From Amphiplicatus metriothermophilus (GTDB lineage: Bacteria; Pseudomonadota; Alphaproteobacteria; Caulobacterales; Parvularculaceae), in the NCBI RefSeq assembly GCF_900199215.1, contig NZ_FZQA01000009.1:1-64000 (forward strand): a DNA stretch of 64,000 bases. The letters are read 5' to 3'. This document shows, piece after piece, positions 1-24,923 of this stretch (the first letter of the stretch is position 1; the number at the start of each line of letters is the position of its first letter). The notes under the pieces were generated by a model that searched no databases, was not told the origin of the DNA, and saw only the letters and a list, made by a program, of their open reading frames with translations. The translations under genes were made by a program, and so were the position numbers.

Positions 1-130
1 TCTTCTGGGCGATATCGTTTTCCCGACATTCTCTATCTCCTTGAATGCAGCCATTTGTTTCCTTGTTCGTGGCTGCGTTCAAAGGGGTCGGGTCAGGCAA
101 CGCCGCACGCGCAGAATTCTTTAATAGGAC

Positions 131-1576
131 CTAGTCGCCAGGGGTCAGTACCGGGTTGTTCGAAACAATCGTTAGTGATCGCGCGCCGCGTGTGAGCGCC
201 ACATACAGTTCCTTCTTCGACAGGGATGCGGCGTCGAGGACGATGGCATGATCGAATTCAAGCCCCTTGACCAGAAGAGTCGTGCCGATGAGCTTGCGCC
301 GTCCAACCGGACGGCCCTTGTAACGGAACTCGCCGTGATATTTTTCAGCCGCTTCCGCGAGAGAAAATTCCGGATGGAGAGTATGCTTGCGCAGCACACC
401 CATCACCCGGCCATACAGGTCTGAACGAACAACCTCTATGCCCGGTGTCACCCTGAGCGCCATAAGTAACCGGGCCATCTCCGCGCTGCCGGCCTGGGCC
501 AGATATTCGTTCGCCCGCTGCGCCGCTTCGGGATTGCGTGTGTTTACCCGGATATTGACGTGCTCGCCCCGGATCGTTGCGGCGGGAAGATTGGCTTCAA
601 CAGCGGTCATGCAGAGCTTTGCCAGCGCGATGACTTGCTTGAGGCACGCTGCATTGGTCCGTGCCCTGCTGATCTTGGCAACGAACGAGAATAACGATTT
701 GCCTTCGATCTCCTCGATCGAGGAGAACCTGCCGGACAGATTCCGCGCAAGAACATGACACTTCGCCTTGTACTGCTGGCTCCCTTTGTGAATGGCGATG
801 ACCGTATGCTGGCGGTCGCAGTTAAAGTATCGGCACGTATTGCCCTGCGCCTGAAACAGCGCACCCTCGTTATCGGCACGCCGAAACGTAACCTCCGCCG
901 GAAGGCCGTTGGCAAGATCAATGGGCTCTCCACGTTCCAGCCGGGTGCGAACCACTGACAGCCAGTTACCGAGATTATCGGCCCCCGCGCGTATCCAGCG
1001 ATGCGGCACGTCGAGCTGCCCGAGAAGCGGGAAGGCACCTGCGATGTCCCTCTCCCAATCCACGGGGGCCTGCCCTTCAAAATCGAATATCCCCTGCAAC
1101 GGATCGCCGAGTATCCGGGTTGGCAGGTCGCGCGCCAGCTTGAGGACAATGCCGTGCTGGGCTGTCGAACAGTCCTGATACTCATCGACATAAAGCCCGG
1201 CGTAGGAAGAGCGGACGATCCTGCGGATAAACGCACAATCGAGCAGACGCGCGCATGCCTCGTACAACGCACTCCATTGCTCATTGCCATCGGGCCGTTC
1301 CGTGTTCCAGCCCGATGTAGCCGAGTAGGAAAGACACAGCCGCAGCGCCCAGCTTGCAATCGTGTCGATGTGGTAAAGCCTGTAACTGACGCCCAGCTCG
1401 CGCATCTTGCGCCGGAGAGCGTTCACGCCCGCGTATGTGTGCGTCAGAACAAGTTGCCGCCCGGCGCTATGCGACGTGGATTCCGCAATCAGATGGGTCT
1501 TGCCGTACCCGGCAGGCGCGACGACGTAGCCCGCCCCGGCATCATGGGCGGCAAGGATTGCGGAAAGCTCACACAT
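131..1576 (-). CDS. UvrD-like (GajB-like) DNA helicase
   Basis: A 481-residue superfamily 1 helicase. Visible motifs are Walker A (APAGYGKT, about residues 20-27), a DEYQD Walker B box (131-135) and a C-terminal YVALTRG motif VI (from about 458). The start used is the ATG at 1576, which overlaps the stop of the upstream ATPase gene by 8 nt, so translation is probably coupled; the longer open frame upstream is antisense-like filler without family similarity. The size is close to that of Gabija GajB (about 490 residues), and the position just after an ATPase-TOPRIM protein matches the GajA-GajB order. By family it should use ATP to act on DNA ends or single strands and could activate the nuclease partner. 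The helicase assignment is firm; the Gabija role is inferred. It is the last gene of a six-gene leftward run. Confidence 0.85.
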   Translation of the reverse strand: MCELSAILAAHDAGAGYVVAPAGYGKTHLIAESTSHSAGRQLVLTHTYAGVNALRRKMRELGVSYRLYHIDTIASWALRLCLSYSATSGWNTERPDGNEQWSALYEACARLLDCAFIRRIVRSSYAGLYVDEYQDCSTAQHGIVLKLARDLPTRILGDPLQGIFDFEGQAPVDWERDIAGAFPLLGQLDVPHRWIRAGADNLGNWLSVVRTRLERGEPIDLANGLPAEVTFRRADNEGALFQAQGNTCRYFNCDRQHTVIAIHKGSQQYKAKCHVLARNLSGRFSSIEEIEGKSLFSFVAKISRARTNAACLKQVIALAKLCMTAVEANLPAATIRGEHVNIRVNTRNPEAAQRANEYLAQAGSAEMARLLMALRVTPGIEVVRSDLYGRVMGVLRKHTLHPEFSLAEAAEKYHGEFRYKGRPVGRRKLIGTTLLVKGLEFDHAIVLDAASLSKKELYVALTRGARSLTIVSNNPVLTPGD

Positions 1577-3281
1577 TGTCGATCCAGTCCCGCAAGCTGG
1601 TGAGCTGCCGGACCAGATCGCTTGCGCGGATGGCGTCATCTGCCAGGTAGCCCGAAATTGCCGACGCCCACTCGCGGCCCCAGCTTTGCCGCTTGAACCA
1701 GTCGCTGGTCTTGGCGGCCTTTCCGAGTGCGGTACGCAGTTGCGGTGAGTCGGCCCATCCTTCGAAGTTGCGGTCGAAGGCTTGGCCGAATTGGGTCTGT
1801 ACCTGGTCAAGCAGGCGGCCATCGTCACCCCAGATCGCGCGCGCCGCGCCAAAAGACGCCATCACGGCGGCCCACGGCAGGTCCGCGAACACACGCTCTT
1901 CTATGGATAGCGCGCCATGCCATTTTGCGACCGTAACTCCGGCGCCCCGCAGTGCCTGGGCATCGGCATCAGAGAATTGGTCCGGCTCGTCGGAATCTGC
2001 GAGGGCAGCCACATCGTACCCGAGTGCTTTCAGATTCTCGGCTATCTCCCTAATCTTGCTTGCCCCGTTGGCATCAAACAGAGCGACGCCGCGATAGGCA
2101 AAGGATTGCTTGTCTTCCGCCGCAACCCAATGATCGTCCAGTCCGCGCAGAAAGCCGACTTCGGTAGCGCCTTCGCAGACGACGATCTTGGGCGCGAGAA
2201 ACGCTTCGGCGCCGGATCGGATTTTGCCCTGAATGGAATCGGAAATCGCGGGCTTGTTCGCGGCCACCACATCAATGCGTCCGCGATCGCAATGGACGAT
2301 ATGAAGATCGGCCACAGTGAGTTCGCGCAATACGACTGGCGAATGGGTGGTCAGAAAATATTGCCCGGTATCGTCTTGCTTCAAATGCTGCAAGAGGCGG
2401 GCGATGCGATGCGGTTCAAGCCCTACCTCAACTTCGTCAAACAGGGTGATATGCGGTGCGCGTAGCGCCTGCTTTTGCAGGCCGGTGGTGAGCATGCGCT
2501 TGGAGCCGAGGCCCAACTGCCGCAACGGCATGTCGCCGTCATGCAGGGCAAGACCCGCAATCCGGACGTTGATAGCCTCGGTGTCGAGGTGCGCCTTGTA
2601 GGATGCGGCAATGTTGACGCCGAGAGCGCGGGCGGTCGTTTCAGCCGTTTCCGCCACGGCGTCAAAGGCGGTCAAATCCTGCGCGCGCCGGGCTTCCAGT
2701 GCAGCCTTGGCCGCACGCGCCGCACCGGCCAATGATGAGGAGATGTTTTCAGTTTCGGTGAGCTGGCTCAGGATTGATCCGCGCGACCAGGTTAGATGCC
2801 GGTCGGAAATCGCGCCAATGAGGCTGACCGCTACCTTCGCCCGGTCGCTCGCTCTGAACGGAACGCCGTCATCCTCATCGTTCTTGATAACTGTCCAGGC
2901 CGGCTCAAGATCATCCTTGACCATGAGACGGACCCGCAGCGCATCTTCCAGAGCGTCACCGGGATCGTCCGCCCGCGCAAGCGTCTCGGTATTCCAGCCG
3001 CACAGCCAGTGACCGTATTTCTCAAGGTCGCGAAACTCATCCGGCAAATCGCCAAGGACCGCTTCTATCGTGATGGGATTGGCGGGATTGCAGAGATGGA
3101 AGTCAGCATCATCGAAAGTCAAATTCCACTGCGGATGGAAGGCGCGGCGCAGGGCTTCAAGGATTGTCGATTTGGTGGAGTCGCCGCGCCCGATCAGACA
3201 AAGAAGGTTCCGGTCGGGGACCGGCCAGTCAAGTTCACGGATACCTCGAAAATTTCGCACTGATAAATGCCGTATCCGCAT
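1569..3281 (-). CDS. ATPase-TOPRIM (OLD family, GajA-like) protein
   Basis: A 570-residue ABC-type ATPase fused to a TOPRIM nuclease-like domain. The start is the ATG at 3281, with a strong AGAAGGAGGG ribosome site a few bases upstream. The N-terminus MRIRHLSVRNFRGIREL is typical of RecF/OLD ATPases. Walker A reads GRGDSTKST (31-39), with Thr where the family usually has the Gly before Lys. The Walker B/H-loop segment is ITLFDEVEVGLEPHR followed by TTHSP. The TOPRIM part shows KIVVCEGATE and ADSDEPD, the acidic residues of the nuclease site. The length is close to GajA (about 578 residues), and the next gene is a UvrD-like helicase overlapping by 8 nt. Function is inferred as the nuclease half of a Gabija-like pair; activity is not proven. 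Confidence 0.85.
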   Translation of the reverse strand: MRIRHLSVRNFRGIRELDWPVPDRNLLCLIGRGDSTKSTILEALRRAFHPQWNLTFDDADFHLCNPANPITIEAVLGDLPDEFRDLEKYGHWLCGWNTETLARADDPGDALEDALRVRLMVKDDLEPAWTVIKNDEDDGVPFRASDRAKVAVSLIGAISDRHLTWSRGSILSQLTETENISSSLAGAARAAKAALEARRAQDLTAFDAVAETAETTARALGVNIAASYKAHLDTEAINVRIAGLALHDGDMPLRQLGLGSKRMLTTGLQKQALRAPHITLFDEVEVGLEPHRIARLLQHLKQDDTGQYFLTTHSPVVLRELTVADLHIVHCDRGRIDVVAANKPAISDSIQGKIRSGAEAFLAPKIVVCEGATEVGFLRGLDDHWVAAEDKQSFAYRGVALFDANGASKIREIAENLKALGYDVAALADSDEPDQFSDADAQALRGAGVTVAKWHGALSIEERVFADLPWAAVMASFGAARAIWGDDGRLLDQVQTQFGQAFDRNFEGWADSPQLRTALGKAAKTSDWFKRQSWGREWASAISGYLADDAIRASDLVRQLTSLRDWIDNV

Positions 3282-3298
3282 GCGCCGAAACCCTCCTT

Positions 3299-5452
3299 CT
3301 AGGACGCGGCGCGCGCTCGCCGGCCTTCGGCGGTTGTCTGGACTCCAGTCGAGAGCCCGGCAGTAAACCGCTCGGCGATCCCCTTGAAAAGCGTCTCGGC
3401 TTGCGCGAGCACCGGATCGGGAAGCTGAGTCCGCTTCTCGGCCCATTCCGATACAAGATGGATGGCAACAGAAGCCTTCCACCCGTCGGGCAAATCAATG
3501 CCCTGACGCTTGGCGGCGGCCTTGATGGCGCTGGGCAGGCTGCCTGCCTTGCGGTCCGCGTCGGTAAGCTTGATCGCCTTGCCAACCACCGCCTTCACGG
3601 CGGGCAGGATGATATCTTCGCCCAGAATGTCTTCGACTTCGACCTCCTGCCCTGCGCGCCCGAGCACGTCGTCAAGCATGAGGATTCCGCTGTCGTGCCC
3701 CGCGTACAGTTCTTTCATCAGGGCGTCGCGCCGCACGCGCCCGGCGTCATCACCGTCAAGAAGGACAAGCGGGCGGACTTCCTGGGCGAGGAACAGGGAA
3801 GCGAACTGGCCGACAAGCTTCGTGCCGCCGCAAGCGGTGATATAGATGTCCGCCGGAAGTGCGGCGCGCTTCGTCGCGCCGCACTGCTGCGAAAGCGCAT
3901 GCAGGTAGTAGTAGTCGCTCATGCCCTCGACGAGGACGTTCTTTGTGTGCCGGAATAGCCCGCGCACCATTGCGTAACCGGCGGCGGCTTGCAGCGGGAA
4001 GATCGTCTCGCGATCCTTCGGCCAGGTTTCAACGCTGATGTGGGAGTGGCCGGTGTCATCCTCGGTGACGGGCCGGACGCGATGCAGATGCTCGCCGTCG
4101 ATCAGGAACGGCGAGTGCGTCGAATAGAGAAGCTGGTTCTTTTCCGACAGATTCTCGAAAAACGTGATCAGCTCCTGCTGTGCGGTCGGATGCAGGTGCA
4201 GTCCCGGCTCGTCCAGCAGCAGAATCGCGTCCTTGTGGCCTTCCTCGGATTCGACAAGGAAGACCAGATAGAATGAGAAGAACCACTGGAAGCCCTTGCT
4301 GCGGGCCTCCAACTCGATCTCCACATCAGGCCGCCGGTCATCGGCAATCCAGATGCGGAAATAATCGCCGTCGGCGTGGTAGCGTATCTTGTGCCGCCGC
4401 TGCGACCACCACGCGGAAAACCGCTTGCTGATGTCAAGCGATGCGGAATTGAGCCGGATCGCCCGCTCTTCCTTCCGGCGCTGATCCTTGGCGATCACGT
4501 CGGCGGACGGCTGGTTGCCCTGCTTGCGGGTGTTCTGCGCTTCCTCGGCGCCGAGGTCCGCGATTTCCTTCGGGTCGAGGCCGACATGCCTGAACATGGC
4601 GCTGATCGTTCTCACCCGCGCATCGGTCTTGTCGCGGGCAAGGTCTTCGAGGAATCGCGGCAGCCATATCGCGCTGTCGAGAACGCCGTAGTCCTCGAAG
4701 TAGATGAGAACGGGCAGCTTGGCCTTGATCAGCCCGTCAATCCGGTCCGGCACGGGACCGCGCGTGGCGGCTTCAAGAACCGGCGTGATCGCGGTCTGAA
4801 GCGCCTCAACCATATCGGCGGTTTGCGGATTGCTCTTCTTCTCCGATTCGCTGCGAAGCGCGCCAAGCAGTTTCGCGCCCTCCGCGTTCCGCAAATCGCC
4901 CGCCGCCTTGAGCTTGTCCTGCCAGCCTGTCGCCCATTCGGCGAGTGCGGTGCGCAGCGCAGCGGTCGCTTCCTCCTGTTCGGGCGCGGGCGCGGCGAGT
5001 CGCCGGGCGCTACCGGCGAACGTGCCGAGCGCCTTGACGATGGAGTCCGAAGTCAGATCCTTCTCATCAATCTCCGGCTCATACTCGAAGAGCAGCGAGT
5101 TGTCGTAGTAACGGGTGACGACGGCTTCATTGGGCGCCGCCTGTCCCGGCTCAAGAAGCGCGGCGATTTCGGTCTTCAACCCATCCGGCAAGGCGAAGGC
5201 GACGGAACAGACGGGCCAGTCGCCGCCTTTTGACCCTTTCGCGATGTAGTCGCGCGTGTATCGGTCGCGTGGAAATTCTCTCTGCGGATCATACGGCTCG
5301 GGCGTCGCCGGATTGAACTTGTGGAGCGCCTTGAGAAGCGCAGTTTTGCCGGACTCGTTTCGTCCGACGAAGTTTGTGACCCGCTCCAGGGGAATCCAGC
5401 CGCTGTCGTCGATGTTGCGGTAGTTCTGAATTCTGAATCGAACAGCTTTCAT
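3299..5452 (-). CDS. OLD-family ATPase-TOPRIM endonuclease, large form
   Basis: A 717-residue protein with an N-terminal RecF/SMC-type ATPase and a C-terminal TOPRIM domain. Walker A is GRNESGKT at 30-37. The signature/Walker B part is ILLLDEPGLHLHPTAQQ followed by YSTHSPFL. The TOPRIM part shows VLVEGMSDYYYL and VLLDGDDAG, the Glu and Asp-x-Asp residues expected for metal-dependent cleavage. It begins only 1 nt after the stop of the restriction endonuclease gene and lies 17 nt upstream of a second, distinct ATPase-TOPRIM gene. OLD nucleases are phage-defence proteins that nick or degrade DNA. Two different members in one operon with a restriction-modification pair is unusual. The family is clear, but partner and target are unknown. 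Confidence 0.87.
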   Translation of the reverse strand: MKAVRFRIQNYRNIDDSGWIPLERVTNFVGRNESGKTALLKALHKFNPATPEPYDPQREFPRDRYTRDYIAKGSKGGDWPVCSVAFALPDGLKTEIAALLEPGQAAPNEAVVTRYYDNSLLFEYEPEIDEKDLTSDSIVKALGTFAGSARRLAAPAPEQEEATAALRTALAEWATGWQDKLKAAGDLRNAEGAKLLGALRSESEKKSNPQTADMVEALQTAITPVLEAATRGPVPDRIDGLIKAKLPVLIYFEDYGVLDSAIWLPRFLEDLARDKTDARVRTISAMFRHVGLDPKEIADLGAEEAQNTRKQGNQPSADVIAKDQRRKEERAIRLNSASLDISKRFSAWWSQRRHKIRYHADGDYFRIWIADDRRPDVEIELEARSKGFQWFFSFYLVFLVESEEGHKDAILLLDEPGLHLHPTAQQELITFFENLSEKNQLLYSTHSPFLIDGEHLHRVRPVTEDDTGHSHISVETWPKDRETIFPLQAAAGYAMVRGLFRHTKNVLVEGMSDYYYLHALSQQCGATKRAALPADIYITACGGTKLVGQFASLFLAQEVRPLVLLDGDDAGRVRRDALMKELYAGHDSGILMLDDVLGRAGQEVEVEDILGEDIILPAVKAVVGKAIKLTDADRKAGSLPSAIKAAAKRQGIDLPDGWKASVAIHLVSEWAEKRTQLPDPVLAQAETLFKGIAERFTAGLSTGVQTTAEGRRARAAS

Positions 5453-5453
5453 C

Positions 5454-6194
5454 TCACACCCCCCGTGCCGCCTCCGCCGCTATGTGGCCGGCCAGCTCCG
5501 TGACGAACGTCTTGAGACCGGTCATGCCGTCCAGCTCCTGATAGGCGCCGTCCGCCGACGCCGTGCGCGGCGACGCGATGACGGAGGCGACGGAATAAAG
5601 CTGCTCCTGCATGAGTCTCTGGCAGAGCAGGTTGTAGCGCTTGAGATACGACGCGCCCTGAAACTCCGGGAATACCGGGAAGTGCGGCGAGCGATCCGTC
5701 ACGGGCCGGCGTGACTCCGGTGCGTCCTCGACCATCATCATCCAGCCGACAAATGGGCGCGGCTGCTTGCCGAAGGCGCCCTCGCGATAGGCAACCCACA
5801 AATCGTGCGCAGTGCCGATCGCTTCCTCGGTCCGGTTGTTAAAGTTGTTGCCGAAGGACGGCCCGACCTGGCTCTTGAATTCAAGCGCCGCGATCAGACG
5901 GCCTTCATTGATGACAAGCAAATCCCAAAGCTTGGTCGGCCGGAAATATCCCGGCAGCGTGACGACAGCCCGCTCGCGGTGAATAGCGGCATGATCAAGG
6001 CCGTTGGCACGAACCAGATCAATGACAAGCGCGATAAAGCCGTCCATATTTTTGCCCGCCGTGACGCCGGCGCGCTCGCCCTGATCGACGTTTCCGGATT
6101 CGATTTGCTTCTGCCTCGCTTTTTCCCGGTTCCCCCAAAAGGCCTGAACCGCTTCGCGCGCCTTCACTTCATAATTCGCAAGATTAATCGTCAC
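5454..6194 (-). CDS. PaeR7I/XhoI-type restriction endonuclease
   Basis: A 246-residue protein matching the PaeR7I/XhoI type II endonuclease family in length and in its conserved N-terminal region ([19 protein letters not shown], then GKNMDGF). A PD-(D/E)xK-like core is visible: LWDLLVI (Asp91) and ALEFKSQ (Glu105, Lys107). The gene lies 21 nt after the methyltransferase stop, as expected for a type II pair. Members of this family cut at CTCGAG; that specificity is assumed from the family and is not readable from this sequence. Its stop is 1 nt from the next start, so it appears translationally linked to the downstream OLD-family nucleases. Confidence 0.9.
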
Positions 6195-6215
6195 GTAGCC
6201 CCCGCATCCCCTTGG

Positions 6216-7940
6216 TCATTCGCCGTTGCCGCCGAGCGCGGCGCGCTCATTCTTCGAAAGGCCGTAAAGCCTGAAGACGGCGCTGTTGCAGGCGCTCACG
6301 TCGCCCTTTTGCGCGGCGGCAACAAGTTCTTTTTTAATTCCATCGGCAACGTCAGCCCAGCGCGGCAGACGGATACGCCGGAGGTACTGCGCCTGAAAGC
6401 GCAGATAACCGCCGCGCATGCGCGTTGAGTATGTCGCCACGAACAGCCGCGCGATGCCTGAAAGCAGCACAGCCTGCAAGGCGCGCAAGTCCCATTCCTC
6501 CGATGTGATGAAGTAAAGATTGTGGTGCGGATACAGCTTGCCGCCCTCATAGACGATATGTGCTTCGCCCTTGATGTCCGGGATCAGCAGCTTGGGGCGC
6601 CACGTCAGTTCCGGATAAATCCGGTCGATGGTTCGGTACCAGTTGGCGGGCGCCTTCTGCGCGACATGGCGTTTTGCGATCTGGTCCTTGCGCGCCTCAA
6701 GGTAACCCCGCAGGCGCGGATACTTGCCCAAGTCGACCAGACCGCCGCCATCTGCAAACGGATTGACGATGCCAAGGCCGCGCCACTGAACCGCGCCGGA
6801 CAGAATGTCCCGCGTCATGACAAGCGGCAGCTTGCGGTCGTCCTCCACGTCCAGCTCTTTGAACGGGCCGATAAAGGCGTCATCGGCACCGGTCGCAACG
6901 CCGATGCCAACCTTGCAGCCCGCGTCTTCGATGGGCGGGAAGTCCCGCTCCAGGCGGCGAACAAGTTCAAGCTGGTCAGATGAGTCGAGAATCCACGGCT
7001 GCGCTCCTGCGGTGATCCCGGCCATCTCCTTCACTGGCCCCTTCGGATCGGGCGCCTGCGTGGCAAGCAACATAGCCGCGAGATAATCAAGCGCGGTCTT
7101 CTCGATGGCGGGACGCCGCGCAACGCGGGTGCGTCCCGGCTTCTCCCTGACAATCACGGTAATGGCTGGATAGGCGATCACGTCACTGTGGAAAGCCGGC
7201 GTGTCGTACATATCGACATAGATTTTCAGGTGAAAGCGCTCGGCCACCATCTGGCGCAGCGGACCGCCATAGCGGTTCTTCATCCACCGGTCGGCGCAGA
7301 TAAAGCCGAGGGCGCCGCCTTCTGCGAGGGCGGTCAGCGAGCGCTCGATGAACGGGATATAGATGTCCGCGCGATCGAAGACGGTGCGGTAGCGCGCGCG
7401 GTACTCGGCAATCAGCGCGTCCGGGATCAGTTCCTGCCGGACATAGGGCGGATTGCCGACGACGTAATCGAAGCTGCCGGAAAGCGGGGTCAGAAGAAAA
7501 TCGCCCTGCGTCAGCCACGCCCCTACGAGCTGCTTGGCGTCGCGGCTTGCTATTCCGCGCTTGCGCAGAAGCGCGCCGACCTTGCCGCGCGTTTCCTCAA
7601 ACGAAGCGCGGTGCAGCTCGACCGCGCGGATGCAGCCGGCGAGACTTGTCGCCGGGGCGTCCGGCGCGCGGGCTTTCCATGCCGCGATCAATCTTTCGAT
7701 CGCGGCAAGCAGGAAGTCGCCGTGCCCGACTGACGGCTCTAGCAGGCGCTTTTCGTGAAGTGGCCGGTCAGGGGTGTAGCCGACGAGATCGAGAATGAAG
7801 TCCACCACCTCGCGGCGCGTAAAGACAGCGCCGCGCTCCTCGATGCCGGCGGTCGAAAGCAATTCAAGCGCGTCCTCGATCGGACACATTCCGGGAAAGG
7901 ACGCTTGACGCAGCCGCTGGTCGATCGCCGGTTCAGCCAT
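6216..7940 (-). CDS. N6-adenine DNA methyltransferase (PaeR7I/XhoI-type)
   Basis: A 574-residue gamma-class N6-adenine methyltransferase. The order of motifs is a motif X-like segment ([17 protein letters not shown], 39-55), the SAM-binding motif [10 protein letters not shown] (68-76) and the catalytic NPPY box (163-166). A long C-terminal region is suited to target recognition. It precedes the PaeR7I-like endonuclease and should protect the host from it by methylating the adenine of the same site. The start ATG at 7940 is 2 nt after the stop of a small ribbon-helix-helix gene that may control the operon. Length is close to known members of the family. The assignment is firm for methyltransferase and inferred for site. 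Confidence 0.9.
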
Positions 7941-7942
7941 GC

Positions 7943-8161
7943 TCAGGCGCCTCCTGCCGCACGGCGGCGCGCCGGTCCGATATTGAGGGCCACGGCGCCA
8001 TCCTTGTCGCGGCGCTCCAGGAACTCGCGCATCGAGCGGCGAATCAACCAGGATGCGGTAACCTCGCCCTCCTGCGCGAGCCGGTCAAAGGCCGCGTAGT
8101 CATCGGGATCGACGGTTACCGTGATCCTCTTCATCGGCTTGTGTTTTCTGCGGTTCGGCAT
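7943..8161 (-). CDS. Small ribbon-helix-helix DNA-binding protein
   Basis: About 72 residues with the core [20 protein letters not shown] followed by [16 protein letters not shown], the beta-strand plus two-helix pattern of CopG/Arc-type ribbon-helix-helix proteins. The C-terminus is basic. Several in-frame ATGs exist (8161, 8167 and further upstream); 8161 is chosen because it gives a compact RHH protein, but no good ribosome site decides it. It is the first gene of the leftward defence operon, 2 nt before the methyltransferase, so it is likely the transcription regulator that times expression of methyltransferase and nuclease. That role is inferred from position and fold only. Confidence 0.65.
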
Positions 8162-8326
8162 GGCCATCATGGTGATGCATAGTGTCATATCCGACACCAC
8201 GATAACTAGCCCACTGGAAATGGCAAGCTACTAAATCTGGGGAAAACGAGAGAGCCCATCGACTGGACATAATCCTCGCCACAAACGCGCCACAAGCTGA
8301 AACGGGCCGAAACGGACAATGGCGGA

Positions 8327-8508
8327 TTTCTGCGGGTTCCAGAGGACCGGCCCGCTGTGGCAAAAACGGCCCCGAAGGGCCGATTTCTTTCCGTAAGTAT
8401 CTTCTAAGCTATTGATTTTATTATGGCGCGAGCGACGGGACTTGAACCCGCGACCTCAGCCGTGACAGGGCTCGCTGAAAGCCACAGTTTCTGCGGCTTA
8501 CAGAGGAC
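8327..8508. repeat. 21-bp imperfect direct repeat flanking the tRNA-Asp remnant
   Basis: The word at 8327-8347 recurs at 8488-8508 with two mismatches (TTTCTGCGG, then TT, then CAGAGGAC). The copies sit on either side of the tRNA-Asp remnant at 8424-8473, and the right copy overlaps the end of the integrase gene. Placement around the attachment core suggests recombinase arm sites or a remnant of duplicated insertion ends. The rest of the gap 8162-8497 shows no gene. Confidence 0.55.
8424..8473 (-). pseudogene. tRNA-Asp(GTC) 3' remnant, likely attachment site
   Basis: Reading leftward, this shows the 3' half of a tRNA-Asp: an anticodon loop containing GTC (CTGTCAC), the 3' anticodon strand, the variable loop AGGTC, a T arm with GGTTCAAGTCCC and a complete CCA end. 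The D arm and 5' acceptor strand are absent, and pairing fails at the base of the anticodon stem. It is therefore not a functional tRNA but a displaced 3' fragment left by tRNA-targeted integration. A tyrosine recombinase gene ends 24 bp away. No intact partner tRNA-Asp was seen in the window. Confidence 0.8.
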
Positions 8509-9712
8509 TCGCCACAGATTCGCCACAAGAATTTCGAGCGGTCAAAATTGAAAGCAGACCGACACTGCTATCGTCGCGTGTCTCCGCCGCTTCGATAAGG
8601 TGTCCATAAATGTTCAGTGTGGTTTTGATGTCTTCGTGCCCCATGAGCTTCTGTATCTTCTTCAAGTTTGTCCTCCGCTCGATCAGCATCGACGCATAGA
8701 AGTGCCGCAGGTCATACGGTTTGTATTTCGGGCGCTCAACGGTCTCTCCATCTTCTTCGACCGTCTTCATCAAGCCGGCTTCGCAGCAGACGGCGTAGAA
8801 CCCGCGCTTGCGCCAATTATCGATGCTCTGCCAACGGCCGGTCGAGGTCGGAAAGAGAAGGTCGAACTTGTTCGGAATCATCTTGTGATCGCGGTAATGT
8901 GTCACGAGTTCGCGCGTCTGCGGACTGATTTCGATAGTGCGGCGACCAGCCGCTGTCTTGGGAACGGATAGCTTGTAGCCGCCGCCTTCCAGCGCCCGAT
9001 CCACTTTCGCGCCTTCTTCCGTGATGTTGAACGGTTGAATGACAAGATACTCCTGCGGACGCATGCCGGTGTCCGCGGCGAGGTAAAGCATGGGGCGATA
9101 GCGCTCCCATGTGCGGGCCGTCTGCTTATTCTTGGAATTCGCAAGCCGGTCGGCGGCAGCGAGCAGCGCCTGTACGTCGGCTGGCGTTGGTATGACCACC
9201 GGCTCGTCGTACCGGGAGTCGGCCCGGATGCTGATCCCTGCCGCAACATTGCTTGCAATGTGGCCGCGCAGAGCCATTTCCTTCATGACGGAATGAAAAG
9301 ACGACAGCACTTTGTGGGCCTGATAGCGGCTGTGGCGGGACAAGAGCCAGGACCGAAATTCAACGATGTCCGGTGCCTGAAGCTCCTGTAGGGCCTTGCC
9401 CCATTCGTAGGCTTTCATGACTTCGGCGCGGCGACCGTAGGTTTTTTCAGTATGCCTTGTAATAGGGTCGCGTCCGTCGCGACCTTCCTTCACGCAGATG
9501 GCGAGCCACTTATCGACGGCTTGCCCAACGGTTTTGATTTCACATTGGCGAACGCTTTGGTTGGCGCGAGTGCCACCGCTCTCAACAAAATTCCGCGCCT
9601 CCTTCAACGTACTAAAGGTGGCATAGGCATAGCCTGTTTTCGATGATTTACTCGGGTATCGTACTTGGTAAGTCGTGCCTTTCCTGCCTACCCTTTTTCT
9701 TATATCTGACAT
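8498..9712 (-). CDS. int: Tyrosine recombinase / phage-type integrase
   Basis: A 404-residue site-specific recombinase. The N-terminus (KRVGRKGTTYQVRYPSK) looks like an arm-binding domain and is followed by a core-binding domain. The catalytic set is visible as Arg in ADTGMRPQEYL, His-x-x-Arg in YDLRHFYAS, the second His in LMGHEDIKTTL and the Tyr nucleophile in NIYGHL. It ends next to the tRNA-Asp 3' remnant, the usual place for the integrase of a tRNA-targeting element. It differs from the P4-type integrase at 12669 and belongs to another, probably degraded, element. The element's far end was not found. Confidence 0.92.
   Translation of the reverse strand: MSDIRKRVGRKGTTYQVRYPSKSSKTGYAYATFSTLKEARNFVESGGTRANQSVRQCEIKTVGQAVDKWLAICVKEGRDGRDPITRHTEKTYGRRAEVMKAYEWGKALQELQAPDIVEFRSWLLSRHSRYQAHKVLSSFHSVMKEMALRGHIASNVAAGISIRADSRYDEPVVIPTPADVQALLAAADRLANSKNKQTARTWERYRPMLYLAADTGMRPQEYLVIQPFNITEEGAKVDRALEGGGYKLSVPKTAAGRRTIEISPQTRELVTHYRDHKMIPNKFDLLFPTSTGRWQSIDNWRKRGFYAVCCEAGLMKTVEEDGETVERPKYKPYDLRHFYASMLIERRTNLKKIQKLMGHEDIKTTLNIYGHLIEAAETRDDSSVGLLSILTARNSCGESVASPL

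Positions 9713-10744: not shown

Positions 10745-10748
<4 letters not shown>
10542..10748 (+). CDS. Small basic protein upstream of serine recombinase
   Basis: A 68-residue basic protein from GTG 10542, preceded at good spacing by AGGA; an internal ATG at 10566 gives a 60-residue form. The helical segment HPGLAALARLLARDLARQ is the only clear feature. Its stop overlaps the start of the recombinase gene by 4 nt (ATGA), showing coupled expression. It may assist the recombinase, for instance as a directionality factor, but this is inferred from position alone. Confidence 0.6.
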
Positions 10749-12479
<1,731 letters not shown>

Positions 12480-12609
12480 AACGATTCGCAACAATTTTCT
12501 CACGCTGGACCATAGTGGCGGAAACTTCATAACACGCTGAATAAACGGGCTTATTTTGACTCAACAAGTTTGATAGACTATGCGGCAGATAGCGCGAATT
12601 TGCCTCCAA

Positions 12610-12628
12610 GTGGTACCTATATGGTCCC
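12610..12628. repeat. Left end palindromic motif
   Basis: This 19-bp word recurs with one mismatch at 53120-53138 near the opposite end. The right copy holds a perfect GGTACC-TATAT-GGTACC dyad; here the second arm reads GGTCCC. It lies 131 bp inside the left attachment repeat and just upstream of the integrase gene. It is a likely binding site for integrase arms, excisionase or an integrase regulator. Confidence 0.6.
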
Positions 12629-12668
12629 TGGAACCCTCCGGCATGAAGCGCAAATCAGGAGCCGCACA

Positions 12669-14015
12669 ATGCCGAAACTTACCAAACGCGTCGTCGATTC
12701 CTTGAAGCCCGAAGCCGCCGAAGTTGTCCATTGGGACGACGAGTTGCCGGGCTTCGGCGTGCGCGTGCACCCGACAGGGCGGAAGGCCTATATCGTCAAA
12801 TGCCGCTGCCGAGGCCGGCAGATCAAAATGACCATCGGCCGGCACGGCTCGATCACCGTGGAACAGGCCCGAACCAAAGCGCGCGGGATCATCGCGGACG
12901 CCAAGGAAGGCTCCGACCCCTCCGCCCAGTATTCCCGCATGCGGAAGTCGCCCACCATGAAGGAGTTGGGCCAGCGTTTTCTCGACGACTATGTTCCCAC
13001 GCACTGCCGCAAGACGACCGAGCGCGAATACCGCCGGTCGGTGGAGCTGTTCATTAATCCCAAGATGGGAACGCGCAAGGTTATAGACATCGACCGGTCC
13101 GATATCGCGAAGTTCCATCACGACCTGCGCGACAAGCGTTATCAGGCCAATCGATCCCTTGGCGTGCTCTCCAAGATGTTCAATCTCGCCGAGATTTGGG
13201 GCATTCGTCCCGACGGCTCGAACCCCTGTCGGCATGTCAAGAAATACAAGGAAGTGAAGCGAGAGCGCTTCCTGTCGGACGCTGAATACAAACAGCTCGG
13301 CGACGCGCTGCGGCAAGCCGAAGTGGAAAAGACCGAAACCCAATCGGCGATCGACGCCATATGGCTGCTCATGCTCACCGGCTGCCGCCTGGGCGAAATC
13401 ATGACCCTCAAATGGGACTACGTCGATCTCGACGCACGGGAGCTTCGGTTGCCGGATTCAAAGACCGGCCCCAAGACTGTTCACCTCGGTTCCGCCGCCG
13501 TAGAGCGGCTCAAAGGGATCAAGAAACTCGAAGACAACGAATTCGTCATTACCGGGAAAAATCCTGGAGCGCATCTGACGGACCTACAGCACCCGTGGCG
13601 GCGCATCCGAAAGTCAGCCAAGCTCGACGGCCTCCGGCTCCATGACCTGCGCCACTCCTTCGCCAGCCGCGGCCTCCTCGTCGGCGAAGGCCTGCCCATG
13701 ATCGGCAAGCTTCTCGGCCATACGCAAGTGCAAACGACGGCGCGCTACGCGCATCTTGCGAATGACCCGATCAAATCTGCGGCAGATCGGATCGCAGAGA
13801 AGATATCGGATTCCGCGAACGGCGACGGCAAGGAAATACCGGAGGTTTCTTCCGCGGACGCGCCTGACGACCATAGTACGGACGATTTCTCTGAGAAAAT
13901 CACGCCCCATCTGCAAGCCATCGTAAAGGCGTTGACCCGCCAAGCCGCACGGGAGACGTTCAAAAGCCAGCGGAATGGGCGCGGCTCAGCGCCCCACAGC
14001 GACGATGAGATTTGA
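12669..14015 (+). CDS. int: P4-type tyrosine integrase of the ICE
   Basis: A 448-residue integrase that starts at ATG 12669 behind an AGGAG site. The N-terminal DUF4102-type arm-binding domain (LTKRVVDSLKPE ... DDELPGFGVRVHPTGRKAYIV) is followed by a SAM-like core-binding domain and a catalytic domain with Arg in LTGCRLGEIM, His-x-x-Arg in LHDLRHSFAS, His in LLGHTQVQTT and the Tyr nucleophile in ARYAHL. It should recombine the 45-bp tRNA-fMet repeats to insert or excise the element. It lies next to the displaced tRNA fragment, transcribed into the element. The C-terminal 80 residues after the catalytic domain are an acidic/charged extension of unknown role. Confidence 0.95.
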   Translation: MPKLTKRVVDSLKPEAAEVVHWDDELPGFGVRVHPTGRKAYIVKCRCRGRQIKMTIGRHGSITVEQARTKARGIIADAKEGSDPSAQYSRMRKSPTMKELGQRFLDDYVPTHCRKTTEREYRRSVELFINPKMGTRKVIDIDRSDIAKFHHDLRDKRYQANRSLGVLSKMFNLAEIWGIRPDGSNPCRHVKKYKEVKRERFLSDAEYKQLGDALRQAEVEKTETQSAIDAIWLLMLTGCRLGEIMTLKWDYVDLDARELRLPDSKTGPKTVHLGSAAVERLKGIKKLEDNEFVITGKNPGAHLTDLQHPWRRIRKSAKLDGLRLHDLRHSFASRGLLVGEGLPMIGKLLGHTQVQTTARYAHLANDPIKSAADRIAEKISDSANGDGKEIPEVSSADAPDDHSTDDFSEKITPHLQAIVKALTRQAARETFKSQRNGRGSAPHSDDEI

Positions 14016-16854: not shown

Positions 16855-17112
16855 TCAAATCTCCGTTGCTTTGGTTGATTGGGAAGATGAGCGTGCGTTT
16901 TCGAGCTCTTTGCGCGCCCGCTTGAAGCCGGGGTCGGCGTTCATGAACGCCTCCAGCATGAAGGGAATGAGATCGGCGACGCCCTCCTTGTGGCCGTAGG
17001 TGCGCCGGTAGATTTCGGCGTAATCATTGAGGGCGGCTTTGAGCTCGGGGCTCGCGGTGAAGGCGATCTTCGCTGGCTCGCGGTCGGGGAGTTTGTCGAG
17101 CTTGAGGGTCAT
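16855..17112 (-). CDS. DUF2274 family protein
   Basis: An 85-residue protein that starts at ATG 17112 with GGAGA upstream. The sequence KLDKLPDREPAKIAFTASPELKAALNDYAEIY ... YGHKEGVADLIPFMLEAFMNADPGFKRARKEL matches DUF2274, a small family that follows trbI in trb clusters. It may be a ribbon-helix-helix-like DNA-binding protein (short strand KIAFTAS followed by helices). It is 10 nt after trbI and 3 nt before the DUF736 gene. Confidence 0.85.
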   Translation of the reverse strand: MTLKLDKLPDREPAKIAFTASPELKAALNDYAEIYRRTYGHKEGVADLIPFMLEAFMNADPGFKRARKELENARSSSQSTKATEI

Positions 17113-17122
17113 CGGCGTCTCC

Positions 17123-18418
17123 TCATCCGCGGTAAGGCCTGAGCACCAGGTCCGAATGCACGATGATGCGAAGCGGCCAGCCGGGCCGGATGGTGATGGT
17201 GGGCTGGATGCCCAAGTTGCGTTCGGTGATGCGCTGGCCGACACGGTTGGCGCTGTCCTGGGTCGACTCGCGGATCGCCTTGACGAGATCGCCCTCGTCG
17301 TCGCCGAAGGAGAGCTCCGTCCCGACGCCGAGAAGCGTCGAAAGCACGATTCCCTTCAGGAGCCGCCAGGTATGGAAATCGACCTCGTCTTCGAGGCCGG
17401 CATAACCCGCAACGTCCGTAGCCGGCAGATTGTCGATCACGACCGAGGACCCGTCGGGCATGATGATCCGTTGCCAGACGACCAGCGCGCGACTCTGCCC
17501 GAAGGCGATGACGCTGTCATAGGTCCCGATGATGCGCGCGCCCTGCGGGATCAAGAGATAGCGACCCGAAACCGTGTCAAAGACATTCTCAGTCACCTGC
17601 GCGATGACGCGGCCTGGCAGGTCAGAGTTGACGCCGGTCACAAGGCTCGCCGGGATGATGGTCCCCGCCATCACCTGGTAGGGCGAGGCCGGGTCCTGAA
17701 GCGCGTGGGGGTTATAGATGTTCGTCTCGACCCCCTGCTTCAGGAAGTCGAGCTTGCGGCCCTGGAGGTTCTGGTCGTTTTGGAGATCGAGCCCGAGTCC
17801 TTGATCGCCCTCCGCCGCGCTGAGGCCATTGAAGGGATTGCGGTCCGCCGGGCTTAGCGCAGGAGTCGCGCTGCCAACTGTGGCCGGCGTATTCGCCGCG
17901 CCAGCCGTCCGCGTCGAGAGCTGGAAGAAGACGCCGGATTCGCGGCCTTGGCTCGCAAGCCGCGCCTGGCGGATGCGCTCGGCGCGGGCTGCGTCATCCT
18001 CCGGGTTCGGACGGAACGGCAAATCGGGCGACGGCCCGACGCCAAGCTCGCGTTCCTTATCCAGTATGGCGCCGCCGAGATCGCCCGGCAGGGGCGGTCC
18101 GAGTTCGACCGGTTTCGGCAGATCACCGTAATTGCGCGGTAGGCCTTCCAGCCCTTCGGGCGTCGGCGTGTTTTCGGTTCGGATGAGCTCACGGCCGGCT
18201 TCGTCGCGGTCGAACAAGCGCGGCGGATCGAGGGCGAAGATGGTCGCGCCGAAGATCAGAAGAAGCCCCGTGCCGGAGAGCAAAATCAGCACACGGCGGT
18301 TGATCCGTGTCACCGGGCGCGGCTTGGCGCGCAGAGCGAGCGCTTCCGCATCGACCTTGGCGGCGCTGGCATCCGGCGGAATGGCATGCCTCAGTTCGTC
18401 GTCGCAGGATGGCGCCAT
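17123..18418 (-). CDS. trbI: TrbI, VirB10-like core channel protein
   Basis: A 431-residue inner-membrane protein of the mating channel. It has a short cytoplasmic N-terminus, one membrane segment (VLILLSGTGLLLIFGATIFAL, about 43-63), a proline-rich periplasmic linker and a C-terminal VirB10/TrbI beta-barrel domain. That domain includes VMAGTIIPASLVTGVNSDLPG, YLLIPQGARIIGTYDS and the end WPLRIIVHSDLVLRPY. It spans the envelope and opens in response to ATPases TrbE and TraG. Its start overlaps the trbG stop by 1 nt. Confidence 0.95.
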   Translation of the reverse strand: MAPSCDDELRHAIPPDASAAKVDAEALALRAKPRPVTRINRRVLILLSGTGLLLIFGATIFALDPPRLFDRDEAGRELIRTENTPTPEGLEGLPRNYGDLPKPVELGPPLPGDLGGAILDKERELGVGPSPDLPFRPNPEDDAARAERIRQARLASQGRESGVFFQLSTRTAGAANTPATVGSATPALSPADRNPFNGLSAAEGDQGLGLDLQNDQNLQGRKLDFLKQGVETNIYNPHALQDPASPYQVMAGTIIPASLVTGVNSDLPGRVIAQVTENVFDTVSGRYLLIPQGARIIGTYDSVIAFGQSRALVVWQRIIMPDGSSVVIDNLPATDVAGYAGLEDEVDFHTWRLLKGIVLSTLLGVGTELSFGDDEGDLVKAIRESTQDSANRVGQRITERNLGIQPTITIRPGWPLRIIVHSDLVLRPYRG

Positions 18419-19452
18419 CAGCGGTCTCCGGCGTCGAACGCGCCGACGGTGTCGGACCGATCACGGCTGGTGACGTGGGGACGGCCATCGGTGCGGGTGA
18501 TGCGCACGACCTGTTGCGGGTCTTCGCCGAGCCGGAGTTCGGCGGCGGCGAAGAGGCGATCGACAATGTAATAGCGCCCGCGCACCCGGTAGTTGACGAG
18601 CAGGTTGTCCCCGTCCGGCCCGACGACGAAGAGCGGCGGCGCCTCGCCCTGGTCAAGCCGCGCCGGGAATTGGATATAGACCTTGTGCGTATCGTCGAAG
18701 ACGCGAACCGGCCGCCAGGGCGGACTGTCACCGCTCACGGCATAGCGGAAGCGCAGCTTGTCGATATCGAGGCCCGTATCGACGACTTGGGTAACGGCCT
18801 TTTCCGCCGTTCTGTTGTCCCGGCGAAGCGCCAGAAGCGCGTCATGGGGATACGTCCAGGACGCCGAGGCCATATAGGTCTCGGGCGTGCTCGTAAGCTC
18901 CAGATGATAGGCGCGTCGGTCGGTGATGATGACGAGATTGGTCTTGAGGTCTTCCTTGATGGGTTTGACCAGCACGTGGGCGCGGGCGTTTTCTCCACCG
19001 CCGCTCACCGTGTCGCCGATGACCCAGCGCACCGTATCGCCGGCGGAGACGGAGACGATCTTCTCGCCCTTCTGAAGAGCGATGTCGCTTACCTGGCTCG
19101 GCGCCGTATAGACCTGATAGAGCGCACCCTCCGTATAGGGATAGACCTGAATGGCGTTGATATAGCCATCCGCGCTCGGCTCCATGGCGGCCGCAGCATT
19201 GGCGTCCTCGACCCGCTCTTCCGCCGAACGTGTGTCCGGCGCCGGCGGCTCGCCGCCCTTCGGCGCAGGCTTCAATTGCCCGGGCAATGGCAGCGGCTCG
19301 GGCAGCGTGACGATGCGGACGGGACGTGGCGGCTCGGCGGCGAGCGTCGCCGCATCGAAATCGGCGCTGTCGTAGCTGATCTCGGGCGGAAGCTCCTTGT
19401 GGGCGCAGGCCGCGAGCAAGCCGGAAATGGTGAGGATAGCGATTTTCTTCAT
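18418..19452 (-). CDS. trbG: TrbG, VirB9-like outer-membrane complex protein
   Basis: A 344-residue lipoprotein starting at ATG 19452. The signal peptide has a lipobox (LLAAC at about 12-16). The VirB9/TrbG domain shows YPYTEGALYQVYTAP, GEKIVSVSAGDTVRW, a segment with THVLVKP-like strands and a C-terminal lobe with PVRVFDDTHKVYIQFP. It forms the outer-membrane ring with TrbI. The start overlaps the trbF stop by 4 nt. A longer in-frame extension upstream lacks similarity and is rejected. Confidence 0.95.
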   Translation of the reverse strand: MKKIAILTISGLLAACAHKELPPEISYDSADFDAATLAAEPPRPVRIVTLPEPLPLPGQLKPAPKGGEPPAPDTRSAEERVEDANAAAAMEPSADGYINAIQVYPYTEGALYQVYTAPSQVSDIALQKGEKIVSVSAGDTVRWVIGDTVSGGGENARAHVLVKPIKEDLKTNLVIITDRRAYHLELTSTPETYMASASWTYPHDALLALRRDNRTAEKAVTQVVDTGLDIDKLRFRYAVSGDSPPWRPVRVFDDTHKVYIQFPARLDQGEAPPLFVVGPDGDNLLVNYRVRGRYYIVDRLFAAAELRLGEDPQQVVRITRTDGRPHVTSRDRSDTVGAFDAGDR

Positions 19453-20147
19453 TGGTTGTCTCCGGGGATGTGGTCGCGGCTCCAATTGAGCGCGCGGACG
19501 TAGATGCCGAGCGGGTTCTTCCTCAGCGTCTCTTCGGTGCGCGGGCGCTGGAGGAGAATGGAGAGAACGGCGGTGTAGCGGGTCGTGCCTGCGAGCGATC
19601 CGTTCTCGAATGTTTGTTCGCGCCAACGCACGTCGAAGCTGCCCGCGGACGAGCGCACGACACTCGTCACTTCAACGGTGACGGTGCGCTGGCCGACTTT
19701 TGAGAAGGGATCGTTCTCGCGGGCATATTCGTTGAGGGTGTTCGCGGCCTCGATTGTGGTGAAGTCATAGGCCCTGAGCCAATTCTGGCGCACGACGATC
19801 GGATCGATCGACAGTGAGCGGACATTCTCGATGAAGCGCGCCAGGGTGTAGGCGATCTGGGCGTCGGTCGGCTCATAAGCGGAGATGGCCGGCCCGATGG
19901 CGCGCACCTCGCCGAGTTTATCGACCTCGACCACATAGGGCGTGATCGTGCTGCGGCCCGCCTGCCAGACAACGCCGCCGGAAAGACCGACCGCAAGCGC
20001 CAGACAACCGAAGGCCATGAGCCGCCAGTTCCTAGCCTGAACGCGGGCGGAGCCGATCCGCTCATCCCAGACTTGCGCCGCCTTCTGGTAAGGCGTCACC
20101 GGTTCGGGCGTATTGCCATAGGTGGTGGTCGATCTCTTGAACATCAT
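19449..20147 (-). CDS. trbF: TrbF, VirB8-like assembly factor
   Basis: A 232-residue inner-membrane protein with a cytoplasmic N-terminus (PVTPYQKAAQVWDERIGSARVQARNWR), one transmembrane segment (LMAFGCLALAVGLSGGVVW, about 43-61) and a periplasmic VirB8-like NTF2 fold (TPYVVEVDKLGEVRAIGP, then NEYARENDPFSKVG and the C-terminal NPLGIYVRALNWSRD). It nucleates channel assembly between TrbL and TrbG/TrbI. It overlaps both neighbours by 4 nt. Confidence 0.95.
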   Translation of the reverse strand: MMFKRSTTTYGNTPEPVTPYQKAAQVWDERIGSARVQARNWRLMAFGCLALAVGLSGGVVWQAGRSTITPYVVEVDKLGEVRAIGPAISAYEPTDAQIAYTLARFIENVRSLSIDPIVVRQNWLRAYDFTTIEAANTLNEYARENDPFSKVGQRTVTVEVTSVVRSSAGSFDVRWREQTFENGSLAGTTRYTAVLSILLQRPRTEETLRKNPLGIYVRALNWSRDHIPGDNQ

Positions 20148-21475
20148 TCGTCATCCCTGAGCCGTGGGTTCTCGCCGGATACGGGCCGGTCGCCGTCTCG
20201 GACGGTGTGCGCGGCAACGCTTACGCCCTCGCGCATCCGCTGCTCGCGCCGCAGCCTTTGCGCCCAATCCGGCGCGCCGCTCGCTGCCGCGGTCGCGGCC
20301 GGGATATCGGTTCCGCCGGGAAGTGCGCCGCCGGTGGCGGTGAAGGCGCCGCGCGCGCCATCGGAAAAGGACCGGCGAACGCCGGCGGTCGCCCGGTCAG
20401 CGACGTTGCGGATACCCTGTCCGACCGCGCCGACGCCAGCGCGGGCCATGCCGGCGACGCCGGCCGCGACACCCGCTGGACCTGAGCTACCCGAGGCGCC
20501 GCGCCCGAGGCCATAGGCGGTGCTTGCTCCGCCGGCGACGGAGGCGGCCGCTCTCGTCGCACCGCTCACCCCAACTCCGAGTGCACGGGCTCCACCCATG
20601 GCGAGACCGCCGGCCGCCGCGCCGCCAAGCGCAAGACCTGCGGCGGACCCGACGACGGCGCCGGCGCCGAGTTGCGGCGCGCCGGAGACGAGGCCTGCCG
20701 CGATGCCGGGGCCGAAGATCCCGAGCATGAAGATCGCGAGTGCACCAAGCACGGTCGAAAGCGCCTGCTCGATGGTGATGTCGCCGCCCGAGAACGACGC
20801 CGCAAAAGCGCCGAACAGGGTCGAGCCGATCCCGACGATGACGGCGAGCACCATCAGCTTGATGCCGGCGGCGATCACGTTGCCGAGCACCCGCTCGGCG
20901 AGGAACGCGGTCTTGTTCCACAGCGCGAAGGGCACGAGCACGAAGCCTGCGAGTGTCGTCAGCTTGAATTCGAGAATGGTGATGAAGAGCTGGATCGCGA
21001 GAATGAAAAAAGCCAGGAGCACGATGAGCCAGGCGACCATCAGCACGGCGATCTGCACGAAGTTTTCGAAGAAGGCTATTGGGCCAATGAGGTCGCTGAC
21101 TTCCGCCAGCAAAGGCTGCGCCGCGTCAAAGCCGGTCGCCGCAACGAAGCCGGGGCGCATCAGGTCGGCGGCGCTGATCGGCGCACCGGTGGCGCGCAAG
21201 CCAAGGCCTGCGAACGAGTCGAAGATGACGTTCGCGAGGAATGCGAAATTGTTCAGGATGAAAGCGAAGGCGCCGACATAAAGCACCTTGCGTACTAGCG
21301 CCGGGATAACCGCCTTGTCGTCGGCCAAGGCCCAGAAGAGGCCGGCAAGCGTGATGTCGATCCCGATCAGGATGGTCGTGAGGAAGGCGACGTCCGGCGT
21401 CAGCAAGCCGAAGCCGGAATCGATATAGCTGACGAATGTATCCGTGAACTGATCGATGACGTTGAGGTCGCCCAT
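20144..21475 (-). CDS. trbL: TrbL, VirB6-like polytopic channel protein
   Basis: A 443-residue protein whose first two thirds contain several hydrophobic helices (VAFLTTILIGIDITLAGLFWAL, VAWLIVLLAFFILAIQLFI, LMVLAVIVGIGSTLFGAF, FMLGIFGPGIAAGLV). A Gly/Ala-rich C-terminal tail follows (AAGLALGGAAAGGLAMGGARALG). This layout is typical of P-type TrbL. It forms the inner-membrane pore. There are only 16 nt between trbJ and trbL, so the entry-exclusion gene trbK found at this place in many trb operons is absent. Confidence 0.93.
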   Translation of the reverse strand: MGDLNVIDQFTDTFVSYIDSGFGLLTPDVAFLTTILIGIDITLAGLFWALADDKAVIPALVRKVLYVGAFAFILNNFAFLANVIFDSFAGLGLRATGAPISAADLMRPGFVAATGFDAAQPLLAEVSDLIGPIAFFENFVQIAVLMVAWLIVLLAFFILAIQLFITILEFKLTTLAGFVLVPFALWNKTAFLAERVLGNVIAAGIKLMVLAVIVGIGSTLFGAFAASFSGGDITIEQALSTVLGALAIFMLGIFGPGIAAGLVSGAPQLGAGAVVGSAAGLALGGAAAGGLAMGGARALGVGVSGATRAAASVAGGASTAYGLGRGASGSSGPAGVAAGVAGMARAGVGAVGQGIRNVADRATAGVRRSFSDGARGAFTATGGALPGGTDIPAATAAASGAPDWAQRLRREQRMREGVSVAAHTVRDGDRPVSGENPRLRDDE

Positions 21476-21491
21476 CGCCTGTGCCCCTTAG

Positions 21492-24672: not shown

Positions 24673-24923
24673 GAGAGATGCCCCTTGTGGCGGGTATGGC
24701 GGACCAGGACCTGCATGAAGGCTGGGTCCTTGCGCGCGGCGTAGACGGCGACCGCATGGCCGACGATCCAAACGGCAAGTCCCGCGAGCCAAAGCTGAAG
24801 ACCGAGCCCCAAGGCCGCGGCGAGCGTGCCGTTGACGATCGCCACCGTGCGCGGCGCGCCGCCCATCAGGATCGGCTCGGTGAGCGCACGGTGAAGCGGA
24901 ATCTCGAAGCCCTCGACGCTCAT
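24666..24923 (-). CDS. trbD: TrbD, VirB3-like membrane protein
   Basis: An 85-residue protein starting at ATG 24923. The conserved TrbD sequence FEIPLHRALTEPILMGGAPRTVAIVNG is followed by one or two membrane segments (AALGLGLQLWLAGLAVWIVGHAVAV). It assists the TrbE ATPase at the inner membrane. It overlaps trbC by 4 nt and trbE by 7 nt. Confidence 0.92.
   Translation of the reverse strand: MSVEGFEIPLHRALTEPILMGGAPRTVAIVNGTLAAALGLGLQLWLAGLAVWIVGHAVAVYAARKDPAFMQVLVRHTRHKGHLSC

Follow-up and report, generated by a model that had tools for sequence, protein, structure and literature searches.

Extra effectors carried within or behind a modification-based defense operon have been described before, and they are among the closest known counterparts of the six-gene locus analyzed here, which lies at positions 131-8161 of a 64,000-nucleotide (nt) stretch of Amphiplicatus metriothermophilus DNA (contig NZ_FZQA01000009.1, positions 1 to 64,000; hereafter the window). 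RptR-DarTG2, a toxin-antitoxin pair, is embedded in a type I restriction-modification (R-M) locus whose first gene encodes a small repressor (PMC12255303), and OLD proteins have already been argued to be back-up effectors in BREX and BREX-related operons (PMC12839542). According to a 2023 review, class 1 OLD proteins are single genes, away from other candidate defense genes, several OLD proteins are exonucleases, and P2 Old is the only class 1 member shown to be anti-phage by 2023 (PMC10568477). For Gabija, a 2025 preprint attributes the choice between self and non-self to DNA ends lacking RecBCD: the system acts on linear DNA not handled by RecBCD and blocks circularization, injected ends alone did not trigger it, activation required either end-binding proteins of the phage or the loss of RecBCD, and the action of RecBCD protected DNA (PMC12407980).

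The locus studied here places a PaeR7I/XhoI-type R-M pair, an OLD-family protein and a Gabija pair in a single run of co-directional genes. Each module occurs alone elsewhere, and layered assembly is therefore the most likely origin, rather than a new system. We estimate a probability of about 0.65 that the locus is an assembled, co-expressed, multi-layer defense operon beside mobile-element genes, with layers that are largely independent.

An R-M pair, an OLD protein and Gabija in one tight operon

Six genes lie on the minus strand, encoding, in transcription order, an RHH protein, a methyltransferase, an endonuclease, an OLD protein, GajA and GajB. The intergenic spacing read from the sequence is, from 5' to 3', +2, +21, +1 and +17 nt, followed by an 8-nt overlap. 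A preliminary description of this DNA, made from the letters alone, had listed six leftward genes with these families and this spacing, and coordinates, Pfam and PADLOC bear it out. Its view of the locus as a tight multi-gene defense operon also holds, with R-M pair, OLD protein and Gabija as the components, the last by near full-length PADLOC models.

The first gene (7943..8161, minus strand) encodes a 72-residue RHH (CopG-type) protein (PF01402 RHH_1, 2e-9), which from its position is a probable autoregulator that tunes expression of the operon. We also considered whether XhoI systems share this RHH gene as a conserved controller and rejected this, as a tblastn search of the other loci (E 0.01) matched only the gene itself. 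The PaeR7I/XhoI-type DNA methyltransferase (6216..7940, minus strand) has 574 residues with an NPPY motif and matches PADLOC MTase_II PDLC03313 (4e-261), Eco57I-type methylase (6e-23) and TaqI_C (3e-6). Adjacent to it, the 246-residue endonuclease (5454..6194, minus strand, GTG start) matches PF04555 XhoI at 5e-103 over profile positions 1-190 of 191 and PADLOC REase_II at 1e-117. Type II endonucleases encoded on plasmids, among them one annotated paeR7IR (H77), share 76% identity with it. We take its recognition site to be CTCGAG, as for the XhoI/PaeR7I family.

Judged by near end-to-end matches to the PADLOC GajA and GajB models, the last two known genes are Gabija. GajA (1569..3281, minus strand; 570 residues) matches PDLC04168 at 6e-198 over residues 1-568, and has both the ATPase (AAA_15, 2e-13) and the C-terminal TOPRIM domain (OLD-like_TOPRIM, 5e-7) expected of this protein. 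The UvrD-like helicase that should adjoin it is present as gajB (131..1576, minus strand), whose ATG at 1576 accounts for the 8-nt overlap with gajA; its product of 481 residues matches PDLC04173 at 7e-155 over residues 12-479 and UvrD-helicase at 1e-9. Residues K37, D282, E283, H313, E370 and E374 of GajA are invariant in five aligned rows. The Walker A motif of GajA reads G-R-G-D-S-T-K-S-T, without the usual glycine ahead of the lysine, a position that is variable among the five aligned Gabija relatives.

The third module is an OLD-family ABC ATPase-TOPRIM protein of 717 residues (3299..5452, minus strand). Its ATPase (AAA_15, PF13175, 1e-23) and OLD-like TOPRIM (PF20469, 6e-5) domains both score above the Pfam cut-offs, which is the domain composition of class 1, and the nearest solved sequence is 6p74, the class 1 OLD of T. 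scotoductus. Across 29 aligned rows, the ATPase residues K36, D414, E415 and H446 and the TOPRIM residue D513 do not vary, and E509 is nearly invariant. Class 2 (GajA) proteins have their own UvrD-like helicase next door; the neighbors here are the endonuclease gene and gajA. PARIS consists of the ATPase AriA and a separate or fused TOPRIM protein, AriB (DUF4435). Among PADLOC models, AriA (1e-24), Old (7e-22) and AriAB (9e-16) score too close to one another to be separated, and Pfam lists the OLD-like TOPRIM domain and no DUF4435 at E 0.1. The predicted structure has a mean pLDDT of 85.5 and a low pTM of 0.62. With this model Foldseek places 6p74 first at low whole-chain TM-scores (0.26/0.35), and the top ranks in VIA-align go to retron PtuA and Septu PtuA (Z ~18), 6p74 being ranked 23rd (Z 16.7, root-mean-square deviation 14.9); the model supports an ABC-ATPase relationship only.

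The three modules occur without one another

We compared the locus with relatives of each module in two screens, in which flanks ranged from almost nothing to tens of kb; absences therefore apply within the stretches compared. The first screen covered 71 genome-contig loci with OLD, searched with all six proteins at E 1e-3. None had the endonuclease, methyltransferase, GajB or RHH protein at that threshold, and one, L002, continues into GajA. The second screen covered 22 XhoI-family loci, eight other Gabija loci and 47 OLD loci (39 of the 71, and eight from other collections); loci L041-L072, mostly at ~30% identity or partial, were in the first screen only. The 22 XhoI-family loci lacked the OLD, GajA and GajB of this operon at E 1e-10. 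Likewise, no endonuclease, methyltransferase or OLD of this operon was found at the eight other Gabija loci, whose flanks reach at least 5.9 kb on each side of the pair except in L199 (0.2 kb on one side), and none of the 47 OLD loci had its endonuclease or methyltransferase. A second locus with all six genes was not found among the loci compared.

The closest Gabija pair, in L095, is 78/73% identical, and neither the XhoI R-M pair nor OLD was found in its 19.9 kb. A more distant Gabija-like pair (36/34% identity) lies at 212-3350 of L199, a Hydrogenophaga plasmid, 9 kb from a trb region similar to the one in the window. Within the class, GajA was found in 4/385 genomes at E <= 1e-30 and the XhoI family in 6/385, each count including the source genome. 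Relatives of GajA were also sought in viral contigs, and none was confirmed. A search of 61 other genomes of the source family with the OLD alignment gave one match at E <= 1e-100, 34% identical.

These results bear on how the preliminary description had read the operon. It took the six genes as one coupled system, and this is not supported, as each module occurs without the others and no second full locus was found among those compared. It would have abandoned that reading if the sub-pairs were found independently, and this is largely the case: XhoI pairs, OLD and Gabija each occur alone, with the OLD-GajA junction of L002 as the exception. It had further proposed that the methyltransferase marks self DNA for all the nucleases. 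This idea is unsupported because a search for this methyltransferase found none at loci that have relatives of Gabija or OLD; for Gabija it is unlikely, given the eight other loci without it in the stretches compared and a preprint that credits DNA ends lacking RecBCD (PMC12407980). Mechanistic coupling of the modules is possible and unsupported. Among the papers searched, we found none naming both Gabija and PaeR7I, and none on this gene combination, judged by titles and the starts of abstracts.

The OLD clade recurs beside R-M and Hma systems

The most telling part of the locus is that the OLD clade recurrently adjoins R-M and Hma systems. We sampled 24 relatives at 50-77% identity (L003-L024, L026 and L027), of which all except L010 and L019, that is 22, have at least 0.9 kb of upstream sequence. 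Six of these 22 lie directly behind a gene of a modification system, a count that is a lower bound, as longest-open-reading-frame (ORF) calling hid genes in some GC-rich loci. In L003 the Hma genes lay hidden under an opposite-strand ORF and were revealed by tblastn only, and in L024 only an opposite-strand ORF was called over OLD. In L006, L008 and L027, OLD overlaps the upstream hsdS (Methylase_S) by 4 nt, and in L003, L004 and L018 it begins 63-65 nt behind HmaC of an HmaB-HmaC pair (PADLOC identifies HmaB in L004, Pfam reports DUF499 in L004 and L018, and BLAST finds relatives of both in L003 and L018). A C5 methylase gene ends ~255-276 nt upstream of OLD in L020.

When R-M and Hma genes were sought by tblastn anywhere in the stretch, they were found in 10/17 OLD loci of at least 13 kb, or in 9/17 when queries matching their own locus were left out. 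The background, limited to the source genome and other members of its family, was 0/58 chromosome chunks of 20 kb, with the short pieces L168 and L173 left out. We did not use the OLD tree to argue for repeated acquisition of the hsdS linkage: in the best tree two changes are required to explain the rows linked to hsdS, but 19% of bootstrap trees give these rows one origin, so that one origin remains compatible.

Two further observations concern members of this clade. In L006 (8442-19797; Latescibacterota), hsdS, OLD and DarT stand in a row, with a type I endonuclease gene 4.5 kb further downstream. Two contigs classed as 'viral' in IMG/VR, L122 and L123, carry an OLD that is identical and nearly identical, respectively, to the Hma-linked OLD of L003.

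Variable cargo behind XhoI pairs, and the scarcity of CTCGAG

A relative of the methyltransferase accompanies the endonuclease in 18/22 XhoI-family loci. What lies behind the pair differs among four plasmids: an AAA_13 ATPase gene in L107, a hypothetical gene in L108, and, in L109, two small hypothetical genes ahead of an 'abortive infection family protein'. In L106, the 6 kb behind the pair contain no co-directional gene that is annotated. This small sample suggests that the XhoI pair is a cassette whose rear end takes varied cargo.

The window contains one CTCGAG site versus 28.8 expected, and positions 1-53200 contain none versus 9.8 expected at the chromosome's ratio (Poisson P ~6e-5). We considered this scarcity as the footprint of an active XhoI system and rejected it, since the trb segments of plasmid relatives are likewise without sites. 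The 12.35-kb trb segment has no CTCGAG in 4/4 plasmid relatives from other hosts, and the observed and expected counts over larger stretches of these four are 7/16.2, 0/15.9, 1/17.1 and 0/14.8. In four congeners the ratios range from 0.16 to 0.70. The scarcity therefore says nothing about the enzyme; it looks like a property of the conjugative backbone and of the lineage.

Transcription signals and the ends of the operon

All six genes are likely read as one transcript, as we infer from their arrangement. The preliminary description had noted that internal terminators splitting the transcript would undo its single operon. Terminator-like sites are no commoner here than in shuffled sequence: there are ten on both strands of 1-8500 versus 8.9 +/- 3.6 in shuffles, which is the chance level, and six of the ten fall within the operon on the minus strand. 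The site with the highest G-C content lies outside the operon, between it and an integrase gene; this hairpin (8367..8382) has six G-C pairs and a T-rich tail on the minus strand. A candidate operon promoter lies ahead of the RHH gene (8199..8226, minus strand). It is weak, with 9/12 consensus bases, in a region where three promoter-like sites were found and 2.3 are expected by chance.

At the other end, base 1 of the window is also the start of the contig. Bases 1..95 (minus strand) are the edge of a repeated element at this contig boundary, with six further copies of 100% identity elsewhere in the genome; four of these copies are contig starts, and the remaining two show nothing beyond the match. 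The element begins 35 bp past the GajB stop and is probably an insertion sequence; by eye only, bases 1-95 resemble IS3. A contig start and a multi-copy repeat thus fall just past gajB, which is the last known gene of the operon.

Mobile-element surroundings

Upstream of the operon is a 3'-end fragment of tRNA-Asp (8423..8469, minus strand). It shares 89% identity with the terminal part of tRNA-Asp(GTC) at G000:C16:1303-1379 over 47 bp, and with a second fragment, at G000:C14:20393-20438, over 46 bp. The fragment is possibly the remnant of an attachment site, and the two fragments together with the full tRNA-Asp suggest an integrated element. A tyrosine integrase gene lies beside it (8498..9712, minus strand; PF00589 Phage_integrase, 2e-13). 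Next to this integrase, positions 10745-14015 encode a serine recombinase together with another tyrosine integrase, so that several integration modules stand side by side. Conjugation genes occupy 17000-36000, with a trb/traG region and a relaxase with DUF3363; we take this region to be Tn4371-like.

Layered assembly and its alternatives

If the locus is an assembled, layered operon, its working can be outlined as follows. The R-M pair would modify and cut CTCGAG, as its family suggests. The OLD gene and the Gabija pair, behind the endonuclease gene, would probably be read from the same promoter, with expression probably tuned by the RHH protein. Most likely, the layers would act largely independently on the same invader: the restriction layer on unmodified CTCGAG sites, the Gabija layer on linear ends not handled by a host complex of the RecBCD/AddAB type, and the OLD layer as a back-up for cases in which an antagonist disables recombination or restriction. 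Several findings weigh against this picture. The shared orientation of the genes could reflect chance insertion without selection. The OLD-GajA junction is kept in a second genome, L002, a 3.1-kb contig of the metagenome-assembled genome Proteobacteria isolate SZAS-34, where OLD and GajA are 91/93% identical and separated by the same 17-nt gap; this could mean that the two nucleases cooperate. The methyltransferase, GajB and endonuclease were not found in that genome assembly, whose completeness is not stated. As for a dedicated role of the OLD clade, it sits poorly with the 16/22 relatives that have no R-M or Hma gene seen directly upstream (the association being a lower bound), with L005, the nearest OLD relative after L002, which has a PhyH gene upstream, and with L011, L014 and L021, where TonB-receptor, TPP-enzyme and DNA polymerase A genes precede OLD.

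The chance-insertion point can be carried further, to three functionally unrelated modules that gathered passively in a defense hotspot and were never selected for being expressed together. The context of tRNA fragment, integrases, serine recombinase, trb/tra conjugation genes and repeated element at the contig end speaks for this, as does the full arrangement having been found only once among the loci compared. Genes that lie 1-21 nt apart, with one overlap, are closely packed for such a history, however, and relatives of this OLD overlap hsdS; we regard passive accumulation as unlikely. The preliminary description had also proposed that restriction produces the ends sensed by OLD and GajAB. 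In such an account, XhoI cuts would give linear ends for OLD and GajAB to degrade or keep linear, with the R-M pair as the targeting arm and OLD and Gabija as the destruction arm. The 1-nt gap between the endonuclease and OLD genes, the action of Gabija on linear DNA and its block of circularization (PMC12407980), and the exonuclease activity of several OLD proteins (PMC10568477) would suit it. On the other hand, Gabija and OLD occur without this R-M pair, and the preprint reports that injected ends alone are no trigger and that RecBCD action is protective (PMC12407980), which makes this account quite improbable.

Alternatively, OLD, and perhaps also Gabija, could guard the R-M pair by answering phage anti-restriction or anti-recombination proteins, as PARIS answers Ocr (PMC12839542). 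The clade sits with type I R-M, Hma and here type II R-M, and may sense something common to them; yet a modification gene directly upstream was seen in a minority of our sample (a lower bound), and DNA-mimic inhibitors of type I enzymes would not obviously act on a type II enzyme. We give the guard role little credence. A bolder version would make the OLD clade a dedicated accessory of modification-based defenses (type I R-M, Hma, type II R-M) that senses a shared event, for example anti-restriction or end-binding phage proteins, and that here forms one end-processing machine with GajAB, licensed by restriction; this is speculative and distinctly unlikely. We thus retain layered assembly as the preferred reading. 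In this operon, nature provides a ready construct with which to ask if Gabija and restriction assist one another. Similarly, class 1 OLD proteins gain a concrete, testable setting from a clade whose members repeatedly sit immediately behind hsdS or Hma genes and, in this operon, behind a type II endonuclease gene.

Comparison with known systems

Each part of the operon resembles a described system and departs from it in its setting. As in PaeR7I/XhoI type II R-M systems, a methyltransferase gene is followed by an endonuclease gene; here, an RHH gene stands in front and OLD and Gabija stand behind. As in Gabija, an ATPase-TOPRIM protein is followed by an overlapping UvrD-like helicase, but the pair forms the last two known genes of a longer operon. 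The OLD protein shares with the class 1 nucleases (T. scotoductus OLD and P2 Old) an ABC ATPase with a C-terminal OLD-like TOPRIM domain; in contrast to those, its gene lies 1 nt after an endonuclease gene and 17 nt before gajA, and its clade is often inside defense operons. With the embedded defenses of R-M and BREX operons the locus has in common extra effectors within or behind a modification-based operon and, in one case, a small repressor gene first (PMC12255303, PMC12839542). It differs from them in having a type II host system, behind which two ATPase-TOPRIM proteins are encoded. The stack of XhoI, OLD and Gabija belongs to a known kind of arrangement, in which defense modules are appended to an R-M operon.

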